Origin: a bacterium
GTDB taxonomy: Bacteria > NPL-UPA2 > JAGMAN01
Direction: 5' to 3'
Assembly: GCA_023130215.1 (NCBI GenBank)
Contig: JAGMAN010000006.1
Location: 1-24,214 of the forward strand
DNA length: 24,214 nucleotides
This document shows, one piece after another, positions 8,619 through 14,314 of the stretch. The first letter of the stretch is position 1. Every line of letters begins with the position of its first letter. The position numbers were made by a program, and so were the translations under genes. The notes below the pieces were generated by a model. That model saw only the letters and a program-made list of their open reading frames with translations, ran no database searches and was not told the DNA's origin.

Positions 8619-8627
8619 AAATCTTTC

Positions 8628-8697
8628 TTACCGTATAGGAAATTATAAATTTCCCATACGATAGTAAGTTGCGAGGCGATAGCCGAGCTAACTTGTT
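8628..8697 (+). repeat. Structured dispersed repeat, copy 1 (70 nt)
   Basis: All 70 bases occur again at 14227-14314, where an 18-nt segment is inserted in the left hairpin. The left part is an inverted repeat: CGTAT, one mismatch, GGAAATT, a loop ATA, then AATTTCC and ATACG (8632-8660). The right part (8668-8696) folds as AAGTTGC/GC-T-AACTT with an inner GGC/GCC stem and a GATA loop. GA faces GA between the two stems, so tandem sheared G-A pairs are possible on the plus-strand RNA. In the minus-strand mreB transcript the element fills most of the leader. It looks like a small non-autonomous interspersed element; no open frame lies in it. Confidence 0.85.
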
Positions 8698-8713
8698 GGC
8701 ACCCTCTTCTCGT

Positions 8714-8743
8714 ATTTTACCATTACTATACAGATAAGTTCAA
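8714..8743 (-). promoter_or_regulatory. Sigma-70-type promoter for mreBCD
   Basis: On the minus strand the -35 box TTGAAC (8743-8738) is followed after 18 nt by the -10 box TAAAAT (8719-8714). The start would be near 8707, giving an mreB leader of about 120 nt. An A-tract array lies directly upstream (8745-8770). The call rests on consensus only. Confidence 0.6.
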
Positions 8744-8744
8744 G

Positions 8745-8770
8745 AAAAAAATCCAAAAAAATCTAAAAAA
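8745..8770. promoter_or_regulatory. Three phased A-tracts between divergent promoters
   Basis: Runs of seven, seven and six A begin at 8745, 8755 and 8765, exactly 10 nt apart, separated by TCC and TCT. A-tracts in phase with the helix turn bend DNA, and A-rich stretches just upstream of a -35 box act as UP elements for the RNA polymerase alpha subunits. They lie between the mreB -35 box and the UPF0280 -35 box, so they could serve both promoters. Confidence 0.55.
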
Positions 8771-8771
8771 T

Positions 8772-8800
8772 TTGACTGGGAGCGAAAGTGATGATATATT
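8772..8800 (+). promoter_or_regulatory. Sigma-70-type promoter for the UPF0280-hyp operon
   Basis: The -35 box TTGACT (8772-8777) and the -10 box TATATT (8795-8800) are separated by 17 nt. The start would be near 8807, so the leader of about 46 nt contains the hairpin at 8815-8841. The -35 box directly follows the phased A-tracts. Consensus match is good; not otherwise tested. Confidence 0.65.
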
Positions 8801-8814
8801 CAGGGTATGTATTA

Positions 8815-8841
8815 GTATAGGAAACTGAAAGTTTCCAATAC
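8815..8841 (+). repeat. Related leader hairpin before the UPF0280 gene
   Basis: The arms GTAT-A-GGAAACT and AGTTTCC-A-ATAC pair around a GAA loop (8827-8829), with the single A-A mismatch at the same place as the mismatch in the hairpin at 8632-8660. The outer shared pattern is GTATAGGAAA on the left and TTTCC-n-ATACG on the right. It lacks the right-hand hairpin of the 70-nt repeat. It ends 11 nt before the ATG at 8853, where no Shine-Dalgarno sequence is visible, so it may influence initiation. Confidence 0.7.
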
Positions 8842-8852
8842 GTTATAAAATA

Positions 8853-9587
8853 ATGTGCGAAGCGCTTATTTTGCAGCCAAGGATTTACAGGGACTGGGTA
8901 AAGGATAAGGATTTAATCTCTTTCCGGGTGGTGGAGAAGGAGACAGACCTGCATATTCGAGCCAGGGTGGATTTGAGGGAGGAGGCTCGCCAATCGATTC
9001 TAAAATATCGCCGCCCCCTGGAAAATTACATCAGAGAAAACCCATCCTTCCATAGCTCCCTCAAACCGCTCCCGGCGATAAAGGATGCTCCCCAAATGGT
9101 AGTGGACATGGCCCAGGCTGCCGAGAAAGCAGGAGTGGGACCGATGGCCACGGTGGCCGGGGCAATAGCCCAGCTCGTTGGAGAGGACCTACTCAAGTGC
9201 TCACCTGAAGTCATCGTTGAAAACGGAGGAGATATATTCCTGAAGACCTCCAGGAGGAGACTGATTGGCATCTATGCCGGCCGCTCCGTCTTAACCGGAA
9301 AGATTGCTCTTCAGATTGAGCCGGAAGATACTCCCCTGGGAATCTGTTGCTCCTCCGGAAAGGTAGGCCATTCCCTCAGCTTTGGAAGAGCGGATGCAGT
9401 TATCGTCCTCTCACCATGCGCCACCTTAGCCGATGCGGCGGCCACTGCCATTGGCAACCTGATTAAGTCGGGTGGAGACATCTCCAAAGGAATAGAGTTT
9501 GCTAAAAACTTAGAAGGTTTAGAAGGGGTGGCTATCATCGAGGGAGACAAGATGGGAATCTGGGGAGAAGTGAAGATCTGCCGATGA
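8853..9587 (+). CDS. UPF0280 family protein (ApbE-superfamily-like, COG2122 type)
   Basis: The 244-aa protein matches the UPF0280 pattern over its length: YRDWVKDKDLISFRVVEKETDL near the N-terminus, LKPLP, then MAQAAEKAGVGPMATVAGAIA and EVIVENGGDIFL. The family is uncharacterised and is usually linked to the ApbE superfamily of FMN-transferase-like folds. The sequence alone does not show whether it is an enzyme. It opens the hyp operon and overlaps hypF by four nt (ATGA), a tight link to hydrogenase maturation that hints at a cofactor role (inference). An in-frame stop lies in the loop of the leader hairpin at 8826-8828. The ATG at 8853 is therefore the only usable ATG, despite having no Shine-Dalgarno sequence. 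Confidence 0.88.
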   Translation: MCEALILQPRIYRDWVKDKDLISFRVVEKETDLHIRARVDLREEARQSILKYRRPLENYIRENPSFHSSLKPLPAIKDAPQMVVDMAQAAEKAGVGPMATVAGAIAQLVGEDLLKCSPEVIVENGGDIFLKTSRRRLIGIYAGRSVLTGKIALQIEPEDTPLGICCSSGKVGHSLSFGRADAVIVLSPCATLADAAATAIGNLIKSGGDISKGIEFAKNLEGLEGVAIIEGDKMGIWGEVKICR

Positions 9588-11869
9588 TGAAAGGGGCTAA
9601 AATAAAGATAGAGGGAATTGTCCAGGGGGTTGGTTTCCGACCATTCGTCTACCGTTTAGCCAGTGGTCTGGGATTAAAAGGATGGGTGCTTAACTCAACC
9701 CGGGGAGTGATAATAGAAGTGGAGGGGGAGAGCCATAACTTAGAAGTCTTTATCAGGCGCCTTAAGGACAAATCCCCTCCTATGGCCAGAGTGGAGAAAA
9801 TGCTTGTAGAGGACTGCGCCCCTGAGGGTTACCAGGAATTTATCATTAAGCGAAGCAGTGAAGATGAGGAGAAATTCCTTCTCGTCTCGCCCGATATCTC
9901 CACCTGCAATGAATGTCGGGAGGAGCTCTTTCATCCGGATAACTTTCGCTTTGCCTACCCATTCATCAACTGCACTAATTGCGGCCCTCGCTTCACCATC
10001 ATAAAAGATGTCCCTTACGACCGTCCGCATACCACTATGGCTACCTTTAAGATGTGTCCCATCTGCCAGGCTGAATACGAGGACCCGGGCAATAGAAGGT
10101 TTCATGCCCAGCCCAATGCCTGCTCAGGCTGTGGCCCCCAGCTCCAACTCCGACAAGATGGCTCACTCTGTCAAGTAACAAATCCCCTGGACCGAACTGT
10201 GGAGTTGCTTAAGAACGGAAAGATAGTAGCCATTAAGGGATTGGGAGGATACCATTTAGCCTGCGACGGGGAAGATAACCAGGTAGTTATCCGCTTGAGG
10301 TCAAGAAAGATTCGGGAGGATAAGCCATTTGCCGTTATGTGTTATGATTTAAGTTCGGTGGATAGATACTGCTACCTCAATCAAGGGGAAAAAGAGCTCC
10401 TGGAGAGTCCCGAGAGGCCAATTCTGCTCATGCGGAAGAAGACAGACTGTCCCATTGCTTCCGCGGTTGCCCCCAATAATAGATACCTGGGAATAATGCT
10501 TCCCTGCACCCCATTACACTATCTTCTCCTTCGCCAATTTGGTCATGCCTTAGTGATGACCAGCGGCAACCAAAGTGATGAGCCAATTGCCTATGAGGAT
10601 GAGGATGCGCTTCGCAGGCTTTCCTCCATTGCTGATTATTTCCTAACCCATAATCGGAGAATTATGCGCCGCTGTGATGATTCAGTGGCCAGGGTCTTTG
10701 CTGGCCGCAGCATAATTATCAGACGCTCACGGGGATATGCTCCCCGACCGATCAGGTTGCCCGGGGCCGTTAATGAGATCTTAGCCTGCGGAGGGGAACT
10801 TAAGAATACCTTCTGCCTGACCAAAAATAACTATGCCTTTCTCAGCCATTACATTGGAGACCTGATTAACCTGGAGAGCCTGGCCTCCTTTGAAGAAGGA
10901 ATCCAGCATTTCCAGAAGTTATTTAACATTCATCCAAAAATTGTGGCTTATGATCTTCACCCTGATTATCTCTCCACCAAATATGCCTCTCAACTCTTAG
11001 CCACGAACCATGGGCTATCCTCGGTAGGCATTCAGCATCACCATGCCCACATTGTTAGCTGTATGGCTGAGAATGGATTGCGGGAGAGAGTTATTGGGGT
11101 AGCCTTTGACGGCACTGGTTATGGTTCTGATGGCACCATCTGGGGAGGAGAATTCCTGATAGCGGATTATGCCGATTTCAAGCGAGTGGGACACCTTCAG
11201 CCGCTGCCACTACCGGGGGCTGACGCGGCCATAAGAGAACCATGGAGAATGGCCGTTTCCTATCTTTATTCTGTCTATGGAGACAACTTCACAGATTTGG
11301 ATTTAGACTTCAATAGAAGGCTGAATAAAAGAAAGTGGCCCATCCTGAAGCAGGCCATGGATAAGAAAGTTAACTCCTCCCTTACCTCAAGTATAGGGAG
11401 GCTCTTTGATGCTGTAGCTTCGCTACTCGGCATTAGAGATACAATTAATTACGAAGGTCAACCTGCCATTGAACTGGAGCAGATAGCCGAAGATAGGATA
11501 GATAAATGGTATCCCTATAAAATCATAGAGGAGGAACCTTTCTTAATCGATCCTAGGGGGATGATAGAGGCAATAGTGGAAGATTTGAAGCATGGCACTT
11601 CGCGCTCCGTCATCGCCGGTAGATTTCAGCGCACCGTAGCTGAGTTCACCATAAATATGTGCAGAAAGATTAGAACTACTCATGGCCTGAACAAAGTGGT
11701 CTTAAGTGGAGGTGTCTTCCAGAACATTTTCCTTCTGCGCATCCTCTGGGAAAAACTGAGGCAGGAGGGACTGGAAGTCTTCATCCACCATCAAGTTCCC
11801 ACCAACGATGGTGGAATCTCATTAGGTCAGGCAGTTATTGCCAATGAGAGGGTAAAAAAATGTGCTTAG
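9584..11869 (+). CDS. hypF: Hydrogenase maturation carbamoyltransferase HypF
   Basis: The 761-aa protein has the full HypF domain order. An acylphosphatase domain comes first (about 5-92, with VQGVGFRPF at 13-21). Two zinc fingers follow, with pairs C108/C111, C130/C133, C158/C161 and C180/C183. Next is a YrdC-like domain (about 200-385, with KGLGGYHLACD and TSGNQSDEPI). Last is a Kae1/TobZ-like carbamoyltransferase domain (about 395-755, with H485-HHAH489 and FDGTGYGSDGTIWGGEF). HypF uses carbamoyl phosphate and ATP to carbamoylate the C-terminal cysteine of HypE, the first step in making the CN ligands of NiFe hydrogenase. The start may be 9584 or the adjacent ATG at 9587. The end overlaps hypC by 10 nt. 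Length is normal and no key motif is missing. Confidence 0.97.
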   Translation: MMKGAKIKIEGIVQGVGFRPFVYRLASGLGLKGWVLNSTRGVIIEVEGESHNLEVFIRRLKDKSPPMARVEKMLVEDCAPEGYQEFIIKRSSEDEEKFLLVSPDISTCNECREELFHPDNFRFAYPFINCTNCGPRFTIIKDVPYDRPHTTMATFKMCPICQAEYEDPGNRRFHAQPNACSGCGPQLQLRQDGSLCQVTNPLDRTVELLKNGKIVAIKGLGGYHLACDGEDNQVVIRLRSRKIREDKPFAVMCYDLSSVDRYCYLNQGEKELLESPERPILLMRKKTDCPIASAVAPNNRYLGIMLPCTPLHYLLLRQFGHALVMTSGNQSDEPIAYEDEDALRRLSSIADYFLTHNRRIMRRCDDSVARVFAGRSIIIRRSRGYAPRPIRLPGAVNEILACGGELKNTFCLTKNNYAFLSHYIGDLINLESLASFEEGIQHFQKLFNIHPKIVAYDLHPDYLSTKYASQLLATNHGLSSVGIQHHHAHIVSCMAENGLRERVIGVAFDGTGYGSDGTIWGGEFLIADYADFKRVGHLQPLPLPGADAAIREPWRMAVSYLYSVYGDNFTDLDLDFNRRLNKRKWPILKQAMDKKVNSSLTSSIGRLFDAVASLLGIRDTINYEGQPAIELEQIAEDRIDKWYPYKIIEEEPFLIDPRGMIEAIVEDLKHGTSRSVIAGRFQRTVAEFTINMCRKIRTTHGLNKVVLSGGVFQNIFLLRILWEKLRQEGLEVFIHHQVPTNDGGISLGQAVIANERVKKCA

Positions 11870-12081
11870 CGGCACCAGCCCGAATAACTAAAATAGAGGG
11901 AGAGAGAGGCTGGGTGGAGGTAGGTGGAGTGGTGCGGGAAGCAAATCTGCAGCTACTTCCAGAGGCAAAGGTAAGAGATTATGTCCTCTTACATGCTGGC
12001 TTTGCTATCCAGAAGCTGGACGAAGAGGAGGCTGAGAAGACCCTAAGAATCCTAAGAGAGATAGCAGAAATAGGCAATTAG
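11860..12081 (+). CDS. hypC: Hydrogenase maturation chaperone HypC/HybG
   Basis: This 73-aa protein starts MCLAAPARI, with the conserved Cys2 that carries the Fe(CN)2CO moiety between HypD and the hydrogenase large subunit. The small OB-like barrel (VEVGGVVREANLQLLPEAKVRDYVLLHAGFAIQKLD) is typical of the family. It overlaps the hypF end by 10 nt and lies 2 nt before hypD, so translation is coupled on both sides. The initiator methionine must be removed to expose Cys2, as in other HypC proteins. Confidence 0.96.
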   Translation: MCLAAPARITKIEGERGWVEVGGVVREANLQLLPEAKVRDYVLLHAGFAIQKLDEEEAEKTLRILREIAEIGN

Positions 12082-12083
12082 CC

Positions 12084-13166
12084 ATGAAATACATTGATGA
12101 GTTCAGGAATAGGGAATTGGCCCAGGGATTAATTAAGAAGATTGTGGAGCGCTCTACCCGCCCGGTTAAGTTAATGGAGGTATGCGGCACTCATACCGTT
12201 AATATCTTCAGGTATGGCATCAAGGAGCTACTGCCGGAGACGGTCACCCTTCTTTCCGGACCAGGCTGTCCCGTCTGTGTCACTCCCAATGAAACGATTG
12301 ATAAGGCCATTGCCCTCTCCCGGGAGAAGGATGTTATCTTAGTCACTTTTGGTGATATGATGGATGTTCCTGGCTCAAGCTCAAGCTTAGCCAAGGAGAA
12401 ATCTCAAGGCGCTGATATCCGGGTAGTCTACTCGGTCCAGGATGCCCTCAAGATAGCCACTGAGAATCCCAAGAAGAAAACTGTCTTCTTAGCCATTGGG
12501 TTCGAGACCACCTCCCCTACGGTAGCTGTATCTCTTATTGAGGCAGAGGAGCTTGGACTCCGGAACTATTTCATTCTCCAGGGACATAAGCTGATTCCAC
12601 CGGCTATGAAAGCTCTGGTTGAAGATGAGAATCTCGCTCTTGACGGCTTCATCTGCCCGGGGCATGTGAGCACCATCATTGGCCAAAGACCTTACCAATT
12701 TTTAGCCACTCAGTATAAGTTGCCCTGTGTCATCTCTGGCTTTGAGCCCTTAGATATCCTGCAGAGCATCTATATGCTAATTAACCAGATCGAGCAGGAT
12801 AGAGCCGAGGTCAAGATTCAGTATAAAAGAAGCGTTAAAGAAGAAGGGAATCCCTTAGCTCTCCAGAAGCTCTACCGGGCCTTTCAGGTAAGTGATTCTA
12901 ACTGGCGTGGTCTCGGTCTCATCCCGGGTAGTGGACTTAAGCTCAGGAATGAGTTCAAGAATTTCGATGTGGAAGAAAAATTTCCCATTGAAGTAGGGGA
13001 GGTAAAAGAGAATCCTGACTGCATCTGCGGTTCCATCTTAAAGGGAATAAAGACGCCTCTGGACTGTCCCCTCTTCAGGAAGGTGTGCCGTCCAGAGAAT
13101 CCGATTGGACCTTGCATGGTCTCCTCGGAAGGAAGTTGCGCTGCCTACTATAAATTCAGACAGTAA
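12084..13166 (+). CDS. hypD: Hydrogenase maturation iron-sulfur protein HypD
   Basis: The 360-aa protein contains the HypD signatures: MEVCGTHT around C34, and LSGPGCPVC with C62 and C65. A cysteine-rich C-terminus (CICGSILKG, DCPLFRKVC, GPCMVSSEGSC) holds the 4Fe-4S cluster and redox cysteines. HypD with HypC is the scaffold on which iron receives two CN and one CO. The start at 12084 is 2 nt after hypC with no obvious Shine-Dalgarno sequence, which fits translational coupling. Length is normal, and the operon order F-C-D-E agrees with the usual set. Confidence 0.97.
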   Translation: MKYIDEFRNRELAQGLIKKIVERSTRPVKLMEVCGTHTVNIFRYGIKELLPETVTLLSGPGCPVCVTPNETIDKAIALSREKDVILVTFGDMMDVPGSSSSLAKEKSQGADIRVVYSVQDALKIATENPKKKTVFLAIGFETTSPTVAVSLIEAEELGLRNYFILQGHKLIPPAMKALVEDENLALDGFICPGHVSTIIGQRPYQFLATQYKLPCVISGFEPLDILQSIYMLINQIEQDRAEVKIQYKRSVKEEGNPLALQKLYRAFQVSDSNWRGLGLIPGSGLKLRNEFKNFDVEEKFPIEVGEVKENPDCICGSILKGIKTPLDCPLFRKVCRPENPIGPCMVSSEGSCAAYYKFRQ

Positions 13167-13168
13167 GA

Positions 13169-13181
13169 CTTTAGACTAAAG
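13169..13181. promoter_or_regulatory. 13-nt palindrome between hypD and hypE
   Basis: CTTTAG and CTAAAG are perfect arms around one A, just after the hypD stop, in the 48-nt gap that is the longest spacing within the hyp operon. It may be an operator or chance. There is no T-run, so it is not a terminator. Confidence 0.2.
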
Positions 13182-13214
13182 CAGTGAAGTAGATGAGTGT
13201 GGGAGGATTAAATC

Positions 13215-14222
13215 GTGGAAGATAATATTCTGCTTGCTCATGGAAGCGGAGGGAAGCTCTCTCACCAGTTGATTAAAGATTTGTTCCTACCCCAGTATGA
13301 TAATCCAGTTCTGGCTAAGTTAGATGATGCCGCTAAACTGCGCTTAACGGGAGACTGCTTAGCCTATACCACGGATTCCTATGTAGTCAACCCCCTCTTC
13401 TTTAAAGGGGGAGACATTGGACGACTGGCTGTCTGCGGAACCGTGAATGACTTGGCCATGACGGGAGCAAAGCCCCTTTATCTCACGGCCTCCTTCATTA
13501 TCGAAGAGGGCTTACCTTTGGCTGCCCTTAAGAAGATTCTCATTTCTATGAAGCAGGCATCAGAGGAGGCCGAAGTAGAAGTGGTGGCCGGAGATACCAA
13601 AGTAGTGGAGAAAGGGGCAGCGGATAAACTTTTCATTACTACTTCAGGGATAGGTGTAATAGAGAAAGGGTTAAATATCGCCGGAGCTAATGCTAAGGCA
13701 GGAGACAGAGTCATCTTAAGTGGGGACATCGCAGAGCACGGAGTGGCTATTTTAGTTGAGCGGGAGGGAATGGAACTGGACGTAGAGATTAAGAGCGATG
13801 TAGCTCCCTTAAATCATCTGGTAGCGCAGATGCTGAAAGTGAGCAGAAAAATCAGGTGCCTGAGAGATCCCACCCGGGGAGGACTGGCTACCACTTTAAA
13901 TGAGTTAGCTACCCAGTCTGAAGTTGGAATCAGAATAGAAGAGGACAAGCTCTCTATCAAGGAAGGGGTAAGGGGCGTCTGCGAGATATTAGGACTGGAC
14001 CCTTTATATGTAGGCAATGAAGGGAAACTGGTAGCAGTCGTTGACCCCGAAGATAGTCAGTCGGTCCTGGAGAAAATGCGCCAACATCCTTATGGAACGG
14101 GTGCCCAGATCATCGGGGAGGTAGTAGAAAAGCCAACTGGCCGAGTATTCATGAAGACCTCCATTGGAGGAAGCCGCATCGTTGATATGTTAGCTGGCGA
14201 ACAACTGCCCCGCATCTGCTAA
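13215..14222 (+). CDS. hypE: Hydrogenase maturation protein HypE (carbamoyl dehydratase)
   Basis: The 335-aa PurM-like ATP-binding protein opens with ILLAHGSGGKLSHQLIKDLF. It contains the CLRDPTRGGLATTLNELA nucleotide-binding segment and ends PRIC. The terminal cysteine C335 is the residue carbamoylated by HypF and dehydrated to thiocyanate, from which CN is passed to the HypCD iron. The start is a GTG at 13215 with GGGAGG nine nt upstream. It closes the hyp cluster; hypA and hypB (nickel delivery) and the protease gene are not in this window. The repeat copy 2 begins 4 nt after the stop. Confidence 0.97.
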   Translation: MEDNILLAHGSGGKLSHQLIKDLFLPQYDNPVLAKLDDAAKLRLTGDCLAYTTDSYVVNPLFFKGGDIGRLAVCGTVNDLAMTGAKPLYLTASFIIEEGLPLAALKKILISMKQASEEAEVEVVAGDTKVVEKGAADKLFITTSGIGVIEKGLNIAGANAKAGDRVILSGDIAEHGVAILVEREGMELDVEIKSDVAPLNHLVAQMLKVSRKIRCLRDPTRGGLATTLNELATQSEVGIRIEEDKLSIKEGVRGVCEILGLDPLYVGNEGKLVAVVDPEDSQSVLEKMRQHPYGTGAQIIGEVVEKPTGRVFMKTSIGGSRIVDMLAGEQLPRIC

Positions 14223-14226
14223 TTTT

Positions 14227-14314
14227 TTACCGTATAGGAAATTACTTGTGCCCGTAAGGGTGTAAATTTCCCATACGATAGTAAGTTGCGAGGCGATAGC
14301 CGAGCTAACTTGTT
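14227..14314 (+). repeat. Structured dispersed repeat, copy 2 (88 nt, with 18-nt hairpin insert)
   Basis: It carries the same 70 bases as 8628-8697: the first 18 and last 52 are identical. An extra CTTGTGCCCGTAAGGGTG (14245-14262) is placed at the loop of the left inverted repeat. The insert itself folds as CCC/GGG around GTAA, a GNRA-type loop. The orientation is the same as copy 1. It fills the gap between the convergent hypE and gmk genes, and the last bases of gmk, including its TAG stop (14307-14305), lie inside it. No terminator-like T-run follows on either strand. Confidence 0.85.

Follow-up and report, generated by a model that had tools for sequence, protein, structure and literature searches.

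Single-strand transposition by HUH enzymes, as described for the IS200/IS605 family and for PATEs (palindrome-associated transposable elements), involves elements that lack terminal inverted repeats (TIRs), carry hairpins at their ends and use a target on a fixed side which is not duplicated (PMC6006769, PMC3119063). The PATEs of Haloquadratum are non-coding, have palindromes near their termini, and show neither TIRs nor target duplications; a conserved targeting oligonucleotide lies outside the element, and deletions occur between internal direct repeats (PMC3119063). They are related to IS200/IS605 and are mobile although their transposases are mostly pseudogenes (PMC3119063). IS1294, of the IS91 family, likewise has no inverted repeats, makes no target duplications and shows a preference for GTTC or CTTG (PMC6052338). 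Here we describe a real, mobile, PATE-like family of elements whose sequence is apparently undescribed; no mention of the hairpin sequence turned up in a search of the literature.

The window analysed is a stretch of 24,214 nucleotides (contig JAGMAN010000006.1 of assembly GCA_023130215.1) from a bacterium of the lineage NPL-UPA2, whose genome (G000) comprises 136 contigs and 1.01 Mb and is about 90% complete. A first-pass annotation had reported an identical 70-nt structured element at two sites, one of them with an inserted 18-nt hairpin. Direct reading and a repeat search confirmed that 8628-8697 and 14227-14314 are identical at 70/70 shared positions, and that the 18 additional nt of copy 2 form a CCC-GTAA-GGG hairpin within the hairpin 1 loop, in which GTAA is a GNRA tetraloop. 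Chance is excluded for this identity because further copies are present in the genome (BLAST E about 1e-28). The two sites stood, but the reported boundaries included target bases, and comparison of copies and empty sites corrected the limits of this element, M1, to those in Table 1; a related element in the window, M3, had been overlooked. That the two M1 copies bracket the UPF0280-hyp genes, as also pointed out at first pass, looks incidental. Both copies are more stable than any of their dinucleotide shuffles, with folding z scores of -5.5 (copy 1) and -5.2 (copy 2) on the + strand and of -8.9 and -6.4, respectively, on the - strand.

Table 1. Elements, target tracts and replacement start codon in the window
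Feature	Position	Strand	Description and basis
Target tract TTTCTTA, outside element	8624..8630	+	5' of copy 1; 5'-flank consensus; at other copies, the empty sites already contain the tract
M1 copy 1, 65 bp	8631..8695	+	Hairpin 1 GTATAGGAAATT/AATTTCCCATAC, hairpin 2 AAGTTGCGAGGCGATAGCCGAGCTAACTT, end CTTG
M3 element, 61 bp	8813..8873	+	Two hairpins; flank search, also recovered by the M1 covariance model
ATGTGCGAAGCGCTTATTTTG inside M3	8853..8873	+	Replacement ATG in frame with the UPF0280 gene, MCEALIL/QPRIYRDW
Target tract TTTTTTA	14223..14229	+	5' of copy 2; 5'-flank consensus
M1 copy 2, 83 bp	14230..14312	+	Extra 18-nt GUAA-capped hairpin in hairpin 1 loop

Copies were counted by sequence searches of the host genome, and nine genomes of the phylum were searched, including the congeners G001 (MAG CSMAG_2268, publicly labelled Nitrospirota) and G002, and G007 (MAG CSMAG_2088) from another family of the phylum. 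The genome-wide count, which the first-pass annotation had proposed as a check, gave about 10 M1 and 7 M3 copies in the host. Beyond the window, the 70-nt query matched contigs C107, C61, C102, C122, C81 and C136, as well as copies that are cut off where contigs C17 and C16 end; since several contigs end at an M1 copy, the true number of M1 elements is probably higher. The 7 M3 copies, including that in the window, are near-identical and have unrelated flanks. The M1 covariance model (R1) recovered M3 with E values of 2e-7 to 8e-5, and also found a wider set, M4, of longer relatives (75-204 bp) with extra hairpins in G000, G001, G002 and G007. M1 itself is present in at least 5 copies in G001, as one clear copy and one further possible fragment in G007, and as one copy, whose hairpin 1 contains two compensatory pairs, in an Omnitrophota MAG (JAGLHE, L052).

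All of these elements share a left end, CNGTATAGGAAA (in M3, TAGTATAGGAAA), and most family members have the right end TTCTTG or CTTG. Comparison of the ends of M1, M3 and M4 detected no TIRs, and subterminal palindromes are present at both ends of the elements. The modular growth suggested by the first-pass annotation extends to other copies: the M1 elements on C122 and C81 carry the 18-nt hairpin plus a further two-hairpin module of 60-odd nt, M2, which is also found alone in relatives. M2 is a separate two-hairpin repeat family with one unpaired T in its second stem, free-standing in G002 (L021, L026, L031 and L035; also L012 1550-1612) and embedded within M1 copies in G000.

The joined flanks of copies were searched in the congeners, and the G001 loci on C150, C151 and C161 were compared by direct alignment. 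Empty counterparts were identified at 7 insertion loci, with an exact junction at most of them. Where the host has TATGTAT-M3-CAGCC in the window, G001 has TATGTATCAACC (TATGTAT/CAGCC), and the M3 on C51 has an exact empty site in both G001 and G002. The M3 locus on C100 is empty in G002, which reads ATTTTCTTGCCCTC, showing that the target TTTTCTTG pre-existed at this locus. The M1 locus on C61 is likewise empty in G002, with TTTTCTTG present once (as CAAGAAAA, on the other strand). Among the G001 insertions, the M4 on C150 is missing from G000 and G002, the M4 on C151 is missing from G000, and the M1 on C161 has an approximate empty site in G002, with a few base differences close to the junction. 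Rearrangement prevented a judgement at the remaining loci, and for the two M1 copies in the window the searches yielded no informative empty site. Target duplications, another of the proposed checks, were seen at none of the 7 loci compared. The multiple copies and the empty sites in relatives support recent activity of a non-autonomous mobile element, where the earlier proposal had named activity or strong constraint as alternatives; the window elements belong to a mobile family rather than a fixed RNA.

A T-rich TTT(C/T)TT(A/G) tract (TTTYTTR) lies immediately 5' of the elements. In 29 M1 and M4 copies, the 5' flank is strongly T-rich from -7 to -2, with C/T predominating at -4 and A/G at -1, although only -7 to -4 provide a free test, since the patterns used to collect the copies fixed part of -3 to -1; the 3' flanks of the same copies are unconstrained. 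T occupies -7, -6 and -5 in 12 or 13 of 13 M1 flanks, and M3 targets are T-rich only loosely. By inspection, some targets resemble terminator T-runs (flanks of L143 and L144). The end of an element is the same kind of sequence as the target, and other elements therefore insert behind a copy: in G002 (C40) an M4 is followed directly by a second M4, and in G007 (C9) an M4 has an M1 immediately after it.

This anatomy is that of non-autonomous single-strand transposons such as archaeal PATEs, which makes an HUH-type mechanism the most likely one. We consider it probable (about 0.62) that M1, M3 and M4 are non-autonomous, PATE-like single-strand transposons. On this model the element strand would fold to form its two end hairpins, and an HUH transposase acting in trans would make two cuts, one on the 3' side of the TTTYTTR tract in the left flank and one on the 3' side of the TTYTTG with which the element itself terminates. 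The excised strand would be joined to the 3' side of a further TTTYTTR tract. As a result the target would not be duplicated, and the 3' end of the inserted element would become a fresh target for the next insertion. A circle junction would then have CTTG joined to CCGTATAGG.

The likeness to PATEs covers the lack of TIRs and of target duplication, the near-end palindromes, the conserved target outside the element and the non-coding content, and extends to internal repeat-mediated deletion, as the M1 copy on C136 has lost the stretch between two GATAG repeats. The present elements differ in belonging to a bacterial candidate phylum, in being as small as 61-65 bp, in having loops that gain hairpin modules, and in that no related full-length IS was found. 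They also differ from PATEs in that hairpin 1 begins right at the edge of the element, so that there is no room 5' of it for the guide tetranucleotide of IS200/IS605. Pairing of the target with a guide in the element's own interior was not above that in shuffles. Since the enzyme is missing and guide pairing does not exceed shuffles, we liken the working of the family to that of a PATE and make no claim of IS200/IS605 membership. PATE-like elements are thereby extended to bacteria whose draft genomes measure about 1 Mb, and a very small, apparently undescribed transposon family free of target duplications is documented by empty sites in a poorly sampled bacterial lineage.

The particular HUH route could be IS91-like, with rolling-circle mobilisation by a Y2 enzyme, a doubtful reading that nevertheless fares best among the alternatives. 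Like IS1294, the elements have neither TIRs nor target repeats, and CTTG, among the favoured targets described for that element (PMC6052338), occurs in many of their targets and at their ends. A decayed IS91-type Y2_Tnp fragment also lies near two TTTTCTTG sequences in G001 (C104; L210 323-740). However, many targets are TTTTTTA instead of CTTG, the target here is a longer T-rich tract (TTTYTTR), and no full-length Y2 element carrying these ends was found; Y2 (PF04986) was not detected in the host, and the G001 fragment is the only one, in one of three congeners. Somewhat more doubtful is a single-strand family of elements as small as 61 bp whose 3' terminus is a copy of the target, which chains head to tail and grows by hairpin modules, and which would be moved by an unrecognised enzyme other than the known Y1 and Y2. 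The family offers a defined query for finding the enzyme that moves it, TTTYTTR/CNGTATAGGAAA...CTTG.

Unlikely, and less credible than either of these, is that the elements are REP-like sequences moved by a domesticated TnpA-REP (RAYT). They resemble REP, BIME and REPIN sequences as short, multi-copy, hairpinned DNA that is mostly intergenic and largely near gene ends, and Y1 genes occur in several members of the phylum. One of these, in G001 (C78; L055/L078), is a RAYT-type transposase; however, it has inverted GGTCGCTGTCCC on both sides as its own ends, and represents a different REP system. The elements described here have two fixed ends and a specific target tract, and lack the GTAG tag at the hairpin foot. 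Y1 (PF01797), and with it any RAYT, was not detected in the host (about 90% complete) or in G002, so that the REP-associated transposase which the first-pass annotation had proposed to look for did not materialise. The Y1 loci of relatives are without the M1-family ends, no cognate transposase with these ends was found, and no TnpB had matching ends; one TnpB fragment lies at a contig edge in G005, followed by apparent reverse-transcriptase sequence.

A constrained regulatory RNA or bidirectional terminator, kept in place by selection, would account for strong hairpins with compensatory changes, for near-identical copies and for the location of several copies in 5' or 3' untranslated regions. 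Among the sequences selected by hand for the covariation table, hairpin 1 has compensatory changes at 3/12 pairs, where pairing is kept when A-T is replaced by G-C, when T-A is replaced by C-G and when T-A, C-G and G-C stand for one another; a position that is often imperfect reads A-C, A-A, A-T or G-C. The outer stem of hairpin 2 occurs in five fully complementary versions: AAGTT/AACTT, AAGAA/TTCTT, AAAATAA/TTATTTT, GAAAATCGC/GCGATTTTC and GAAAATTCC/GGAATTTTC. Both stems thus covary, as the first-pass annotation had proposed to check, and this pattern supports selection on the hairpins, which may act on them as DNA or as RNA. However, the element is missing at orthologous sites of congeners, copies lie in both orientations between unrelated flanks, and some are within genes. 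The suggestion that it may work as RNA also found no backing in folding or in Rfam: the + strand folded better in 18/27 elements and the - strand in 9/27, with no consistent preference, and Rfam gave no match in the window at the gathering threshold and no meaningful match on any element at a relaxed threshold. We regard a fixed RNA as very improbable. An Acido-Lenti-1 candidate at 11376-11427 fell below its cut-off and lies inside hypF. A classical DDE MITE that duplicates a 4-bp CTTG target is scarcely credible. CTTG does terminate those M1 copies that have TTTTCTTG as their left flank, but CTTA or TTTA often stands on the left while the right end stays CTTG; M3, the topA M4 and the C151 M4 show no duplication at exact empty sites, and TIRs are lacking.

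The genes flanking the copies are mreB, the UPF0280 gene (PRK04334 family), hypF, hypD, hypE and gmk. At 8807-8873, M3 sits behind the second codon of the UPF0280 gene and has brought in a TAG stop, and the protein that begins MYQPRIYRDW in G001 would begin MCEALIL-QPRIYRDW in the host; from the reading frame, the ATG within M3 probably serves as the start codon. M1 copy 2 overlaps the 3' end of gmk and provides its stop codon. In G001, a 174-bp M4 (C150; L178 1504-1677) lies in frame and open within topA, recognised from its sequence, adding 58 codons; the topA orthologues of G000 and G002 are without this insert. In its manner of insertion, this resembles the Rickettsia palindromic elements, which are palindromic and insert in frame in protein genes, whereas most copies here are intergenic. 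The family thus illustrates two routes of gene change, a new start codon (UPF0280) and the addition of an open in-frame segment (topA). Several M3 copies (L065, L067 and L068; G000 C101, C68 and C51) are followed closely by a ribosome-binding site and start codon, and some of them come right after promoter-like sequences.

Outside these genomes, phage and plasmid records gave no match, and the hairpin-2 core and the M4 right end were unmatched in viral contigs. The left-end 17-mer had four chance matches in viral contigs, with the rest of the element absent, and a Betaproteobacteria match (L050) was a chance 21-mer without flanking structure. Two unrelated features were observed in the host: a cobalamin riboswitch on the - strand of C107 (L002 1945-2149; 85 bits) and, at 1611-2531 of the window, tandem repeats, each about 156 nt long, that code for a repeat protein (ORF 1398-2651).
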